From: Dehalococcoidia bacterium
GTDB taxonomy: Bacteria; Chloroflexota; Dehalococcoidia; JAUSJJ01
Reading direction: 5' to 3'
Assembly (NCBI GenBank): GCA_030647705.1
Contig: JAUSJJ010000120.1
Coordinates: 1 to 11,784, forward strand
Length of the DNA: 11,784 nt
The position numbers and the translations under genes were made by a program. The notes under the pieces were generated by a model that saw only the letters and a list, made by a program, of their open reading frames with translations, was not told where the DNA came from and did not search any database. Below are positions 4,777 through 11,784 of the stretch, in pieces (the stretch's first letter is position 1; the number at the start of each line of letters is the position of its first letter).

Positions 4777-7416
4777 CTACATATCTTCATGTCGTTGCTT
4801 GCCTAGTTTGAGCAGGGTGATATCCCGGCCAAATAGCGAGGACAGCAGCCAGTCCAAAAGGATTCTGATCCGATTATAGGTCCCTGTGATCAACGATGCG
4901 TAGGCCACAAGCCATATCAGCCGCGCGGCGAGGCCATAGAGCCGCAGGCCGTAAAAGCGAAACACAGCTTTGGAAGCCCCCAGCGAGACTATTTCCGCAG
5001 TATTGGCGTAACGATAGCTCTTCTTGTCCCTGCCTCGAATCTCGGCCAGGATGTTGTGGGCGACAACTTTGGCCTGGCGTACTGCCGTGTGCGCCCGTGG
5101 TGGAATAGGCTGGCCGGACCTGGGGTCTTCAAAGTGGGCGCAATCACCAACGGCGTATACGCCCGGAAAGCCTGGCACTTCAAGATACTCGTTGACCATA
5201 ACTCGGCCCTGTGCATCCGTTTCCGCATCGAGCTCAGCGACTCGCGGGTTGGCCACCACCCCGGCAACCCAGATGAGGGTGCTCATCGGCACAATCTCCG
5301 TGCCATTGATCTCCAAACCTTGTTCCGTGACACGACTGACCTTTGACCGCAATCTGACCTCTATTCCCGTCTGCTGAAGGTGCTTCATGACATAGGCCCC
5401 GAGCTTGGTGTGCAGCTCTGCGACAATCTTGCGCTCCGCTTCGACCAGAATGACCTTGATCTCAGACGGATCGACAGTCTTGTAGAACCTGAGCAGGCTT
5501 CTGAAGATGAAGTCTCTTAGCTCGGTCACCAGTTGGATGCCGGTGTAGCCGCCGCCGGAGACGACAAAGGTAAGCAATTGTCTGCGCCGCTCCGGATCGC
5601 GCTCCAGACTGGCTCTTTCGAAGACACCGATGATGTGATTCCTGATCAACATCGAATCGCGCAGCGTCTTGAGGGTGAACACGTTGTTTCCGACGGAGCC
5701 CAGGTCCGGCACGTGAGTGGTGCTGCCCAGCGCCAGGACCAGGTAATCGAAATCCAGAGTCCCACTGCTTGTAAGGACTTTGCGGCTGGATAGGTCTATC
5801 TTCTCCACATCGGCCAGAACGAACTCAAACCTGTCTCTCCAATGGAGTCTTCTGATCGGATAGGCAATATGCCGCGTCTCTATTCTACCCATTGCTACTT
5901 CGTGGAGCAAAGGCAAGAACAGGAAGAAATTCTCGTTGCTCACCATCGTGATTTGTGCGTTCTCGTTTCGATTCAAGGAGTGGACCAGATTCCGCAAGGT
6001 ATACGTGCCGCCGAAGCCGCTGCCCAATATTAGTATGCGCTTGCCGCCCACGTGCAATCGCTTTGGATAGGCGCCCTTCTTCTTTGACACTGCGCTCCAA
6101 CTCTCCCGGAAAAAGGCCAATAGCAGTCTGGCTATTGAAGCGGGGGCAAAGGCCATCCCGGCCATGGCCCTGTAGCTGTAGCTTCCGGTGAACATGCCCC
6201 AGGTGACTCTGGTAAAGCTCTGGGGCCCACTGGTGTTGTCCTGCTCATCCCCGATGAGGCGGTGTTGTGCCAGAAGGAAAGCGCGTGAATCCTTGGCCCT
6301 GTCATGTATGGAGAATAACACTCCGCCACAGGAGTTGTCTGACTGTATGGCACGACAAAGGGGCTGGTAGCCAAGCTCAAAATCGCGCTGGGATAAGCCG
6401 CGGTGGACCGCAGTGCGGGCAGCCTCGCGGGCCGTCAGCAATGCTGAGCCAATGCCATCCTTGTAGAGCCTGGATACTGCGGCATCGCCGATGGCGACGA
6501 ACCTGTCTGCACAGTAGTTGCGTGCCGGGCCAATCACCGCCCTGGGCCGGCAGCCACACGTCCTCATGTAGTCGGCGGGCAGCAGGCTGCGCACCATCTC
6601 TTGGTTCAGGAAATCGGCGACCGAAACAGGGAGCCTGCCATTACCCAGGACTGAGACGTTTATGAAGGGCCCTTTGGGCACGAGGGCGCCGAAGATCAAT
6701 CCCGAACCTGGAATCAGGAAAATGTGAGCCGTGTTTCCGAGCCGGGACTCCACCTGAGCAGCGCCTGCATACAGTTCATCCTGCGCCATTGTCCGTGTCC
6801 TCGGAGGAACATAGCGAAGCCCGGAGATCGCCGTCGGCCTCGCGTTCACGCCTGATGCCAGCACCACCAGATCGTACTCCAGCCTCGCTCCGGCAACCTC
6901 TATTGCTGCCCCGACCCCCAGGAAAACGCGGGACACTGGCTGGTTCTCGACCCTTGCGCCTTGTCGTTGCGCCTCGCTCAGCAGCCACCTATCGAAGCTG
7001 GCGTTATGGCTGTCTCGAATTCTGTGCGGCCCGCCTGCGCGGTAGATGCTCAGAATCGCCGATTCCTTTTCAGGTTTGCTGATGCTTATCGAAGTGTAGG
7101 GGCTGTGGACCAAGAATCGCTCTATCCTGCTCTTGATTACTCCCTCAGGGATGCTGAGTCCCAACTCATCCAGGTTTTTGACCAGGGATGGGGAGAGAAC
7201 GCCGGCGCAGCCTTTGCATCCCTTTGGCCCAGTGCTGTCGAAATCCCGCTGTTCGTAAATGGTGACTTCAGGAAAGCTGTTCCTTTCCCGTGCATAACAC
7301 AGGAGGTACAGCGCAAAGAAGCTGCCCGCTGGGCCACCGCCGATAACGGCGACCTTTGTGCCAGTCTGGATTCTGTCTGGGTTCTTGTTCATGACATCGC
7401 CCAAACCTTCAAGCAT
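4777..7416 (-). CDS. Fusion flavoprotein: geranylgeranyl-reductase-type FAD oxidoreductase plus type II NADH dehydrogenase
   Basis: This is an 879-residue fusion of two flavoproteins. Residues ~20-440 are a geranylgeranyl reductase/PHBH-type FAD domain. It has dinucleotide motif GGGPAG (26-31), GCKGCAG (66-72), the family-typical SFDRWLL (140-146) and GDAA (310-313) followed by GIGSALLTAREAA. Residues ~455-879 are a full type II NADH:quinone oxidoreductase. It has FAD motif GSGFGG (465-470), NADH motif GGGYTG (621-626), WVAGV (716-720), YAVGDCAHF (754-762), a quinone-site-like AHTAVRQAKVVAHNI and a C-terminal amphipathic membrane anchor (~815-870). Known GGRs reduce isoprenoid double bonds and NDH-2 oxidises NADH at the membrane. 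I infer an NADH-fed reductase for lipid or quinone prenyl chains. The ATG at 7416 has no clear Shine-Dalgarno; ATG 7392 is an alternative with a distant GAAGG. No frameshift is seen across the junction. Confidence 0.9.
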   Translation of the reverse strand: MLEGLGDVMNKNPDRIQTGTKVAVIGGGPAGSFFALYLLCYARERNSFPEVTIYEQRDFDSTGPKGCKGCAGVLSPSLVKNLDELGLSIPEGVIKSRIERFLVHSPYTSISISKPEKESAILSIYRAGGPHRIRDSHNASFDRWLLSEAQRQGARVENQPVSRVFLGVGAAIEVAGARLEYDLVVLASGVNARPTAISGLRYVPPRTRTMAQDELYAGAAQVESRLGNTAHIFLIPGSGLIFGALVPKGPFINVSVLGNGRLPVSVADFLNQEMVRSLLPADYMRTCGCRPRAVIGPARNYCADRFVAIGDAAVSRLYKDGIGSALLTAREAARTAVHRGLSQRDFELGYQPLCRAIQSDNSCGGVLFSIHDRAKDSRAFLLAQHRLIGDEQDNTSGPQSFTRVTWGMFTGSYSYRAMAGMAFAPASIARLLLAFFRESWSAVSKKKGAYPKRLHVGGKRILILGSGFGGTYTLRNLVHSLNRNENAQITMVSNENFFLFLPLLHEVAMGRIETRHIAYPIRRLHWRDRFEFVLADVEKIDLSSRKVLTSSGTLDFDYLVLALGSTTHVPDLGSVGNNVFTLKTLRDSMLIRNHIIGVFERASLERDPERRRQLLTFVVSGGGYTGIQLVTELRDFIFRSLLRFYKTVDPSEIKVILVEAERKIVAELHTKLGAYVMKHLQQTGIEVRLRSKVSRVTEQGLEINGTEIVPMSTLIWVAGVVANPRVAELDAETDAQGRVMVNEYLEVPGFPGVYAVGDCAHFEDPRSGQPIPPRAHTAVRQAKVVAHNILAEIRGRDKKSYRYANTAEIVSLGASKAVFRFYGLRLYGLAARLIWLVAYASLITGTYNRIRILLDWLLSSLFGRDITLLKLGKQRHEDM

Positions 7417-8640: not shown

Positions 8641-8811
8641 TCACTCTCGGCTCCGACTGCGCTCCTTAGCTCGGCCGCGATCAACCTTTCGGTCTTTCTC
8701 CGATGCAGCATCGGAAGGCCCCACGGGCTGCTTCTTCACGGCGAGCTTCTTTGGTGTCTTCTCCGGCCCACCTCGCGTAGCTTCAGTTGCGTCTTCAGGC
8801 TTTTTCGGCAT
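8641..8811 (-). CDS. 56-aa charged small protein next to a RiPP radical SAM enzyme; candidate precursor peptide
   Basis: The ORF starts MPKKPEDATEATRGG and ends RAKERSRSRE. GGAGG (8822-8826) lies 10 nt before the ATG at 8811, which argues for translation from this start rather than the in-frame GTG at 8832. The peptide has 10 Lys, 7 Arg and 10 Asp/Glu, and no Cys, Phe, His, Ile, Asn, Trp or Tyr, so it should be unfolded. It lies 66 nt downstream of the radical SAM gene on the same strand, probably in the same transcript. The middle segment KKLAVKKQPV resembles the K-L-x-hydrophobic-x-K pattern seen in leaders of several RiPP precursor families (from memory, inference). If so, the tail after about VDRG would be the core. 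I know of no family match. Alternatives are a small nucleic-acid-binding protein or an untranslated chance ORF. Confidence 0.5.
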   Translation of the reverse strand: MPKKPEDATEATRGGPEKTPKKLAVKKQPVGPSDAASEKDRKVDRGRAKERSRSRE

Positions 8812-8821
8812 GGTCTCTGTT

Positions 8822-8826
8822 CCTCC
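8822..8826 (-). promoter_or_regulatory. Ribosome binding site for the small charged ORF
   Basis: The minus strand reads GGAGG, followed after 10 nt by the ATG at 8811. It lies inside the longer GTG-start version of the ORF, so it favours the 56-residue form and is the main sequence evidence that this small ORF is translated. Confidence 0.5.
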
Positions 8827-8877
8827 AATCACGATTCTTCACCCGCGTTTCGCGTGGACACATCCGCTGCGGCAGTC

Positions 8878-10833
8878 TCAGCCCGCGCTGTGCATTCGCC
8901 TTGACCCTGCGTGAGGGGCCGCACGTTCGGCCACCGCCAAGCTGAGAAAGCGGCTTCCCTCATGGTAGACCAGACGCGCATCGACGAGCTCTAGGAGGAA
9001 GGCCTCTACATCGTGGGATGACGGCATCTCACGGCCGTCGGCAGCAAGATGCCTACACACCGCCTCCGCCGTAGCTCCGGCATCGCACGCGAGATAGATG
9101 CTGGCCTCCATTTCATCGAACGTGTAGTTGGCACGTTCAAGCCCTGGACGCCTGTCCCGAACAACAAGAAAACCCGGACCACGGCGATAACTGAGAGAAC
9201 GGAACCCATCCTTGCTCGACGCGCGCCAGCGAGCAACTGCTTCCGCCAACTCGACAGTGTACGATGCCGGAACACGACCATCGAGATAACGGTGCTCGAA
9301 ATCGTAAGCAAGGTCAGCGAGCGATTCGGCGGGCACGTGATAGAGAAAGCGATAGTATGGCATCGGGCCCATGATCTGTAGTCCGAACTCGGCGGGTCTC
9401 TCGAAATACGGGCTGAAGCGCTGAATTTGTATGGGAGAGAGTTTCGGAGGTTTCAAGTGGATGATGGACGGAACTAACTCGGCCATCAGCTTATACTCCT
9501 CCGGTGGCTCGCCGGGGAACCCAAAAAGCAGATTCCAATCCACGCTAATACCAATCTCCGCACACCACTTGAGAAAACGAATGTTTTGCAGAGCAGTGAT
9601 GCCCTTCCGCATCAGTCGCAAGATCGGTGTGCTCAGGCTTTCTATTCCCGGCTGGATCTGATTGACACCGGCAGCGTAAAAAGCTAGCAGATTATCTTTG
9701 GTGAGATTCGCCTTGGTTTCGTAGTAGATCTCAAGATCACTGTCCGCGGCTCGGATCAGCGGTAGCAACTCACGAACATGCGCCAAACCAATAATGTCAT
9801 CCACTGCGGTGAAATTGAGGACCTCGTACCGTCTGGCCAGGCTAAGAACCTCTTCCGCAACACGTTCCGCCGGCTTACTCCGGAACGGCGTCCTCGCACT
9901 GTTCGTCCCGCAGAATGTGCAGTGAGACTTGGCGCCCCACCAGCAGCCACGGGAACTCTCAAAGAGAATGGCTACGTTGGGCAACAATTCTGCGCGAAGC
10001 GGGCTGCGTGCGAGTCGCTCGAAGTATTCGTCGTAGATTGGCGACGGTACGTCGTCCATGCAAAGCTGCGGTTTGGCCTCTTGCGGCACCACTACAGACT
10101 GGCCCTCGGCGCGGTAGCATAGACCGGGTTGTGGACGGATCGGCCGTCCGGAGAGCACATCACGCACCACTTCAACGAGGACACGTTCGCCTTCACCGCG
10201 AACTACCAAGTCGATCCAAGGAAAACACTTGTGGAGGGCCGACCCCATGGCGCCATCGCAGTTGCCTCCACCGAACACGATGGTTAACGACGGGTCCCGG
10301 GCCTTGAGCATCTTCGCCAGTACCAGGGAAGCTACATTCTGCTGAAACACCGTTGAGAATCCGACTATCCGTGGTGCGTCCGCGAGCAACTCCTCTGCCG
10401 CGGCCATGAGAAACTGGGGGACTAACGCCTTCATGCGAACGGCGGTCGCCACGGCCTCCTCAGGTACCCCGGTGCTGCGCACATAGGCCAAGAAGTCGTC
10501 GTCTTCTGGCGAGGGCTCAGCGTACGGCGGGACCATGAAAATCCAGTCTCCGAGTTGGACGACAAAGTCCTTGCATGCAACGTCATGGTAGTCGTCTATG
10601 CAGAGCGGTCTGTTGACCGAGTCGCCGGAGGTTGCCGCGTGCAGGTGCTCCATGAACGCGAGGTCCAAAGAATGGGAGCGGGCCCCGATTCCGGCCCGGA
10701 GGAGCGTGTGCTCGAGGATGCCAAGCTGTATCGGCGGGTCCCAGAGAGCCTTAAATGGCATCGAGACCAAGCTCACCATCGCCGGCCCGGAACTGCGCGT
10801 TATGGGATCGTCCCAAAGCGGCGCCATAGGCAC
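8878..10833 (-). CDS. Cobalamin-binding radical SAM enzyme, RiPP maturation (C-methyltransferase) type
   Basis: This 651-residue protein matches the 'RiPP maturation radical SAM protein 1' type in length and signature segments. It opens with MVSLVSMPFKALWDPPIQLG (19-38). A B12-binding Rossmann domain (~85-240) contains VGFSTVFQQN and VFGGGNCDG (186-194) and lacks the DxHxxG base-off motif. The iron-sulfur segment is RGCWWGAKSHCTFCGTN, with C297-x7-C305-x2-C308 instead of canonical Cx3Cx2C. NFTAVDDIIGL and GIESLSTPILRLMRKG follow in the radical SAM barrel. Residues ~520-651 form a C-terminal accessory domain, possibly substrate-binding. Relatives are thought to methylate unactivated carbons of ribosomal peptides using SAM and methylcobalamin. 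GTG 10833 has GGAGG at 5 nt; ATG 10827 has AGAGG at 5 nt, so both starts are possible. A strong promoter lies upstream and a candidate precursor downstream. No transporter, protease or second modifying enzyme is visible nearby. Confidence 0.92.
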   Translation of the reverse strand: MPMAPLWDDPITRSSGPAMVSLVSMPFKALWDPPIQLGILEHTLLRAGIGARSHSLDLAFMEHLHAATSGDSVNRPLCIDDYHDVACKDFVVQLGDWIFMVPPYAEPSPEDDDFLAYVRSTGVPEEAVATAVRMKALVPQFLMAAAEELLADAPRIVGFSTVFQQNVASLVLAKMLKARDPSLTIVFGGGNCDGAMGSALHKCFPWIDLVVRGEGERVLVEVVRDVLSGRPIRPQPGLCYRAEGQSVVVPQEAKPQLCMDDVPSPIYDEYFERLARSPLRAELLPNVAILFESSRGCWWGAKSHCTFCGTNSARTPFRSKPAERVAEEVLSLARRYEVLNFTAVDDIIGLAHVRELLPLIRAADSDLEIYYETKANLTKDNLLAFYAAGVNQIQPGIESLSTPILRLMRKGITALQNIRFLKWCAEIGISVDWNLLFGFPGEPPEEYKLMAELVPSIIHLKPPKLSPIQIQRFSPYFERPAEFGLQIMGPMPYYRFLYHVPAESLADLAYDFEHRYLDGRVPASYTVELAEAVARWRASSKDGFRSLSYRRGPGFLVVRDRRPGLERANYTFDEMEASIYLACDAGATAEAVCRHLAADGREMPSSHDVEAFLLELVDARLVYHEGSRFLSLAVAERAAPHAGSRRMHSAG

Positions 10834-10971
10834 CTCTTCCTCCGCAGTGGTACTGGCTACCGTAAGCGTATCGCGACCGTATGCCGACGGCGTTTCGTCG
10901 AACTGGGCGGCGGATCATCTACCTATTCGGGGTCTAACAGTATCCTGCATGCCCATGACATCGGATGGCTC

Positions 10972-11000
10972 ATCATAATTCTATGCTCGGGGAATGTCAA
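10972..11000 (-). promoter_or_regulatory. Near-consensus sigma-70 promoter of the radical SAM unit
   Basis: The minus strand reads TTGACA (10995-11000), exactly 17 nt, then TATGAT (10972-10977). That is 11 of 12 consensus positions at optimal spacing. Transcription should begin near 10965, giving a leader of about 130 nt before the radical SAM start. It is the best promoter in the window and lies directly upstream of the gene it would serve. The leader has small hairpins (for example CGACG/CGTCG) but no complete riboswitch that I recognise. Confidence 0.75.
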
Positions 11001-11220
11001 GGACGATTTGGCTTGCTCCAGAGATCATAGATCATCTGCATTTCCCCCACTGGTTGCATTCTCTCAACAGAAGTGCTCAAGTGACTAAGGCAAACCGTGA
11101 GCGGCCTTGGATCGCCAACGGCCTGGCCGGTGTAGAACGCCTACCCCATTGTGGTTTGTCAAAGAACTCTCTGAGAAATCGCCGCGACAGAATAATCTCT
11201 GAACCTCCCAGCCGATATTG
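11001..11220. other. Gene-poor stretch right of the radical SAM promoter
   Basis: The plus strand has an 84-codon open frame from 10994 to 11248. It has no recognised domain and no properly spaced Shine-Dalgarno, its start overlaps the -35 box of the opposite promoter, and its end lies in the repeat array. I therefore do not call it. One isolated CTGAGAA copy (11171-11177) and a partial CTCTGAA (11197-11203) precede the main array. Confidence 0.45.
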
Positions 11221-11223
11221 GAT

Positions 11224-11330
11224 CAGAGAAATCCTGAGAACGCTCTGAGAAAAAGAGAGAGTTTCGTCCTTGGAGAAGAGCGCAATGGGTCTATGTCGAT
11301 TTTTCTCAGCAATTTCTCAGAGTCTCTCAG
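11224..11330. repeat. Dyad-symmetric array of helically phased CTGAGAA repeats
   Basis: The left arm holds CAGAGAA (11224), CTGAGAA (11234) and CTGAGAA (11245), spaced 10 and 11 nt. The right arm holds the reverse complements ending at 11330, 11320 and 11309, again spaced 10 and 11 nt. All three pairs are centred exactly on 11277. The 31-nt arms (11224-11254 and 11300-11330) match at 23 of 31 positions. This includes a perfect 10-bp core CTGAGAAAAA/TTTTTCTCAG, around a 45-nt centre. One full copy lies outside at 11171-11177. One-turn spacing suggests protein sites on one face of the helix. The pairing could equally form a long imperfect hairpin in RNA or single-stranded DNA. Confidence 0.8.
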
Positions 11331-11340
11331 CGAAGGTCTT

Positions 11341-11784
11341 GAGAATGACACCAGCGGACACGGCGTGCACATGTTAAAACTGATAGACTCAAACGACACA
11401 GGGGACTACTGCTGACAGGTCGGCGATGCGGCTGCACAAGACGATGGATTGTTGAATGCTGGGCCAAGGCCACAGGAGGGTTGACAACCGCAGCCAGACT
11501 GTGAGTAAATAATAGTGGATGCCACGGGGCATCCAGTGTCCATGAGGAGGTGCAGGGTGAGGCTTCAAGCAGTATTAGGAGTCTGGAACGTGGACAGGCA
11601 AGGCCCTGCTCAGGCGCTGGGCAGGGCACGCTTAGACGCGAGCCTGACTCGACCCACATGAAGGGGACTATTCTCCTAGACGGAGAAACCCAATACGGTT
11701 GTGATAACCGCGATTGAGTTGGGTTCGATACATAGAACCACATGGAACCGAATAGAATATGTTAACTGGGAGCATCCGGCCGGA
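11341..11784 (+). ncRNA. Structured RNA region, probably the 5' part of a group II intron (3' end outside window)
   Basis: No coding signal is convincing, but hairpins are dense: GGCC-AA-GGCC near 11462, a perfect 7-bp GGATGCC/GGCATCC (about 11517-11534), a perfect 7-bp GCCCTGC/GCAGGGC (about 11603-11627), CTCC/GGAG (about 11673-11685), and GGTTC/GAACC around 11721-11738. The run of purine-rich internal loops and the stretch ending with GAATATGTTAAC look like domains I-III of a bacterial group II intron before its reverse-transcriptase ORF. That identification comes from remembered sequence style. The 5' boundary is unknown; GTGCAC at 11365 is near the GUGYG consensus. Domain V and the RT would lie to the right of the window. 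Another structured RNA is possible. Confidence 0.5.

Follow-up and report, generated by a model that had tools for sequence, protein, structure and literature searches.

Among the described systems, the radical SAM enzymes of TIGR03975 (rSAM_ocin_1) come closest to the locus studied here, and they share the architecture and the score class of its enzyme. The bottromycin enzymes are, we assume, members of this model. C-methylation in RiPP pathways is described for bottromycin (PMC11285071) and for clavusporin (PMC12257519). In bottromycin the residues C-methylated by radical SAM enzymes are Phe, Val and Pro (PMC11285071), and in clavusporin biosynthesis amino acids are reported to be C-methylated by a B12-rSAM/DUF5825 pair that is homologous (PMC12257519). 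A TIGR03975-type enzyme of Streptomyces clavuligerus adjoins a separate DUF5825 gene, whereas in the window (the whole stretch of 11,784 nucleotides that was analysed) the DUF5825 match falls within the C-terminus of the enzyme. Radical SAM C-methylation of polar residues is reported for Mmp10 and MgmA, which act on methyl-coenzyme M reductase; the residue targeted by Mmp10 is presumably Arg. Their substrate is a metabolic enzyme, whereas the presumed substrate in the window is a leader-bearing peptide. The C-terminal domain of the window enzyme shares its fold with PqqD and with TbiB1 (PDB 5v1v, a complex of RRE and leader). We take TbiB1 to belong to a lasso peptide pathway; in contrast to it, the RRE-like domain of the window forms part of a B12 radical SAM protein, and the two are 14% identical. 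What further sets the locus apart from TIGR03975 systems is a precursor family with an LSVKKQAV leader and an Arg-rich tandem core, for which Pfam and NCBIfam have no model. In our view the locus probably encodes a minimal RiPP system, in which a precursor is accompanied by an RRE-fused B12 radical SAM enzyme that modifies the Arg-rich core, most likely by C-methylation.

The enzyme gene (8878..10833, minus strand) reads from a GTG at 10833 to 8878 and encodes 651 aa. Its database copy, P0001, has 649 aa, consistent with an ATG start at 10827, which is perhaps the true start. The protein scores 589.7 bits against TIGR03975, the model for RiPP maturation radical SAM C-methyltransferases (cut-off 281.85; model positions 1-606 of 606). 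In Pfam, Radical_SAM and DUF5825 lie above their cut-offs and the B12-binding family PF02310 reaches 26.8 bits, below its cut-off of 32.1. The structure model (pLDDT 91.5) matches TokK, TsrM, CysS, MgmA and OxsB over its whole length, and MgmA (9ccb) is matched in both sequence and fold. The three Cys of the presumed [4Fe-4S] motif C297-x7-C305-x2-C308 (9910..9945, minus strand) are invariant in 83 aligned sequences. A B12-binding and radical SAM layout with three cysteines is thus recognisable from the modelled fold and the invariant residues, cofactor binding being putative. The C-terminal domain (8920..9216, minus strand) is modelled as a winged helix, with a three-stranded sheet and three helices as in solved RREs, and is the presumed leader-binding site. 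The window enzyme falls short of the PqqD cut-off of 23.4 bits, scoring 15.9 bits (E 0.017), and 9 of 46 members match PqqD at E <= 0.1; among the 50 VIA-align matches listed for the domain, TbiB1 is the sole RRE. Of 7997 scored candidates, at least 4193 are homologues of the enzyme at E <= 1e-20, and 119 others among the matches listed are 53-70% identical to it.

Enzyme family and fold make C-methylation the likeliest chemistry. The main alternative is that the peptide is indeed the substrate, and that the enzyme crosslinks (C-C), epimerises or oxidises the core instead of methylating it. B12 radical SAM enzymes of RiPP pathways can crosslink: PbsB joins ortho-tyrosines (PMC12257519). OxsB, which is among the best fold matches, is a ring-contracting B12-rSAM according to the same paper. 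Moreover, the second-best NCBIfam match of the window enzyme is ApyD, at 86.6 bits and far under the cut-off of 750. However, PbsB targets aromatic side chains, which are absent from the window core and few in the cores of the family, and TIGR03975 is named as a C-methyltransferase, with the closest solved folds being mainly methylases. We therefore regard a non-methylating reaction as rather unlikely.

The presumed precursor gene (8641..8811, minus strand) lies behind the enzyme and encodes 56 aa from an ATG at 8811 to a stop at 8641; a GTG 21 nt upstream of this ATG would give 63 aa. As stated by the first-pass annotation, which proposed a RiPP-type enzyme followed by a small ORF, 66 nt separate the enzyme stop from the ATG, and the clear Shine-Dalgarno that it reported is GGAGG (8822..8826, minus strand), as read from the sequence. 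Its observation that the peptide lacks aromatic residues and Cys agrees with the composition count, which extends it to His (Cys, Phe, Trp, Tyr and His, none; Lys 10, Arg 7 and Glu 6 of 56). The leader motif PKKLAVKKQPV (8722..8754, minus strand), presumably the stretch bound by the enzyme, corresponds to the consensus P-R-R-L-S-V-K-K-Q-A-V of a 26-row peptide alignment, in which leader residues L23, V25, K27 and V30 are invariant. The presumed core (8644..8721, minus strand) consists of one V-D-R-G-R unit and an RSRSR tail; R45 and R47 are invariant in the same alignment, and the core holds one VxRxR unit and no DVxRxRxR unit. The window peptide matched no family in Pfam or NCBIfam, and as sole query it retrieved no homologue from the protein database. 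When a family HMM that excludes the window peptide was run on the 304 window frames, the frame of this peptide ranked first (E 0.0011, 13.7 bits). The peptide scores 14.0 bits (E 0.001) against the family HMM and the best of 5000 same-letter shuffles 13.3 bits, so that composition supplies much of the score; the L044 peptide alone (see below) matches the window peptide at E 0.022. We consider the motif, judged on sequence, to be stronger evidence for the window peptide than the HMM score.

Relatives of the enzyme on genome contigs were compared at the best 80 of 572 loci, two of which are at least 60% identical to the window enzyme, namely L044 (67%) and L045 (70%). The contig of L045 breaks off within the enzyme gene. 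In L044 an 86-aa ORF starts 47 nt behind the enzyme and carries PRRLSVKKQAV where the window has PKKLAVKKQPV. The motif KLxVKKxxV had been named from the window alone, before L044 was seen. The expectation of a downstream ORF with this motif was borne out at L044 in the form RLxVKKxxV, with R for the first K, whereas L046 (51%) has other ORFs behind the enzyme and lacks the small leader ORF. A loose leader pattern matched several places in the 80 loci, but a small ORF behind the enzyme only in L044, which suggests that the leader is tied to the close clade and not to TIGR03975 at large. The first-pass annotation had named two signs that would speak against the pair, close relatives with no such ORF and substitutions that ignore its reading frame. 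The one close relative that could be read, L044, has the ORF, and over the 11 leader codons it differs from the window at 3, 2 and 8 sites in codon positions 1, 2 and 3 (3 codons identical, 4 synonymous and 4 non-synonymous), which indicates that the frame is respected. A short ORF adjoins the maturase, as in RiPP precursor loci, in the window and in L044, the only two cases in which DNA beside an enzyme with this ORF was read. L044 is titled Acidobacteria, but over 1474 nt its DNA is 86% identical to that of L045, a Verrucomicrobia contig of similar sample name that also has the gene order rpoN-dciA-enzyme, so the label is doubtful and L044 is probably a misbinned contig.

The window ORF could also be decayed, or have arisen by chance behind an orphan enzyme, the true substrates being the database peptides described below. 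Its weak score, close to that of same-letter shuffles, would agree with this reading, as would the position of the window enzyme on a different branch of the enzyme tree and the adjoining archease, which reads in two frames. Against it, the place, the start, the Shine-Dalgarno and the leader motif are all right, with LxVKKxxV arising in 102 and LxVKKQxV in 4 of 2,000,000 shuffles of the window peptide, and the substitutions between window and L044 keep the frame. This reading is improbable, and we retain the small ORF as a presumed precursor gene.

A profile built from the window and L044 peptides retrieved 25 proteins at E <= 10, of which 24 at E < 1e-3 (best 8.4e-38), and these 24 carry the same leader; together with the L044 ORF they support the RiPP pair. 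Peptides of this kind, with the leader and repeated Arg-rich tails, occur in metagenomes. The common leader is, with small variation, M-x-K-K-S-E-G-K-P-[RK]-R-L-S-V-K-K-Q-A-V-K-T-G-G. An Arg-rich tail follows in all profile matches except P0145 (E 2.3), which has the leader and a different, Lys/Gly/His-rich tail. The core units, mostly in tandem and 12 or 14 aa long, are built around D-V-x-R-I-R-Q-R. Two or more DVxRxRxR units occur in 17 of 27 peptides (the 25 matches, L044 and the window), spaced by 14 or 12 residues and once by 24; the other ten, including the window peptide, have one or none. With P0145 left out, 63 units were anchored on [VILAT]-x-R-x-R, an anchor that itself fixes two Args, which do not count as evidence; 56 of these units have a preceding D, 53 have I between the Args and 51 a third Arg. 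Leaders that are almost the same precede different numbers of repeats: P0142 and P0138 are two 12-aa units (24 aa) apart in length, and P0134 and P0129 one 14-aa unit. The conserved leader and variable core expected of RiPP precursors are found in the 26-row alignment; the overall score of the window's own peptide is weak. The profile matches are 55-100% identical to the L044 peptide and 35-43% to that of the window, so that the latter is an outlier among them. The first reading did not foresee tandem repeats in the related peptides. In searches of Pfam and NCBIfam with 26 members, no family matched more than two of them (best E 0.003), and neither phages nor plasmids gave a match to the L044 peptide. 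The related peptides are basic, with Arg making up about one fifth and Lys about one eighth of residues, as in an unmodified protein, for example a nucleic-acid-binding one, that merely lies beside the enzyme; the conserved leader with tandem cores of variable copy number, the tie to one enzyme clade, the RRE-like domain of the enzyme and the lack of any shared family model make this very improbable.

Peptides and enzymes could also be linked by their sources. Three of 25 peptide clusters match enzyme clusters (n=115) in exact longest-contig size and source (2941 lgn, 34917 jgi and 4349 jgi); a null with jittered sizes gave a mean of 0.07 pairs and reached three in 0 of 20,000 trials. This match is circumstantial evidence for a link between peptide and enzyme. 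In the order of genome G375, where at most 14 candidates were scored per genome, the peptide profile was found in 1 of 397 genomes and the close enzyme in 1 of 397, the same genome. In an enzyme tree of 112 rows, made with a quick method, the rows tied to repeat peptides (P0004, P0010, P0034 and L044) fall within one 23-row clade with 99% support. Over the entire tree the peptide-linked label shows no clustering: it requires 5 changes, and 500 of 500 shuffles required no more. The window enzyme stands outside the 23-row clade on a separate branch of length 0.44, with P0013, P0057, P0059 and P0082 as nearest rows, and its product may therefore differ from those of the repeat-peptide subclade. 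On sequence, the window appears to be a cousin that has kept the leader and the layout, and whose core is a degenerate single unit, V-D-R-G-R-A-K-E-R-S-R-S-R. Taken together, the pairing of enzyme and peptide is well supported.

Close relatives of the enzyme are rare. A first scan of genome contigs with the enzyme alone found no relative, nor did the enzyme alignment among viral contigs. Three surveys, of 213, 397 and 387 genomes, each recovered a close enzyme in a single genome, the one on which the survey was centred. Within the phylum of the window, 7 of 301 genomes match the enzyme at E <= 1e-60, the other six at 34-42% identity. Horizontal transfer was considered as one possibility. G055, a genome of the same class as the window, has three TIGR03975 enzymes (L127, L128 and L129; 37-38% identity) and a weak match to the peptide profile (E 0.83). 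Applied to the genome that contains the window, the two-peptide profile picked up the window ORF and, weakly, one other place (E 0.08). The 26-row profile gave one strong match, G375, in ten genomes with TIGR03975 relatives; four further weak places in them (E >= 0.025) were not counted. In the order of G376, 182 genomes gave no match to the same profile, a null that shows little because there was no positive control among them.

No protease or exporter was recognised among the eight window proteins scanned with Pfam (six of these also with NCBIfam), in line with the first reading, or among the scanned neighbours of L044 (rpoN, dciA and a TPR protein). An archease (PF01951; 7685-8261, minus strand) is split over two overlapping frames, one of which encodes the N-terminal part and the other the remainder, by either a frameshift or a sequencing error. 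An 879-aa protein (4777-7416, minus strand) resembles a fusion of a geranylgeranyl-reductase-like flavoprotein and an NDH2-like pyridine nucleotide oxidoreductase. Upstream of the enzyme, about 950 bases (10834-11784) are without an evident gene, and short TCTGAGA/TCTCAGA repeats were seen by eye at about 11170-11330.

In the proposed mechanism, the small ORF would yield a precursor with the N-terminal leader P-[KR]-[KR]-L-[AS]-V-K-K-Q-[AP]-V, which presumably docks on the enzyme's C-terminal RRE-fold domain; the alternating L-x-V of the leader would suit strand pairing to an RRE. Docking would present the C-terminal Arg-rich core, a series of tandem 12- or 14-aa units in most related peptides and one degenerate unit in the window, to the B12 radical SAM site. 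There, most likely, methyl groups from methylcobalamin would be transferred to unactivated core carbons, one or more per unit. Arg, or an adjacent Val or Ile, would be the likeliest site, and it is Arg that the repeat family and the window have in common. The first-pass suggestion of an Arg-rich core as target and a +14 Da shift remains a reasonable prediction, the chemistry and its site being deduced from enzyme family and core. Release of the product would fall to a protease or exporter encoded elsewhere. It is tempting to speculate, as a tentative and rather doubtful extension, that one enzyme with a built-in RRE repeatedly C-methylates the arginines of tandem D-V-x-R-x-R-x-R units, and that these systems form a soil RiPP family whose products are multi-copy methyl-arginine peptides, the LxVKKQxV leader being conserved and the cores having diverged from one enzyme subclade to another.

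The enzyme belongs to a known family. What appears to be new is the precursor family with its leader and its Arg-rich tandem core, because these peptides have no family model and no description of an Arg-rich peptide family with an LxVKKQxV leader was found in the open-licence literature. With a charged Arg/Glu-rich tandem core in a two-gene system, enzymes of this class would have a broader range of substrates, and if Arg is the site, one enzyme would suffice to make C-methylated Arg peptides. In addition, the conserved leader would serve as a tag to find or engineer substrates of a large uncharacterised enzyme clade of at least 4193 proteins.
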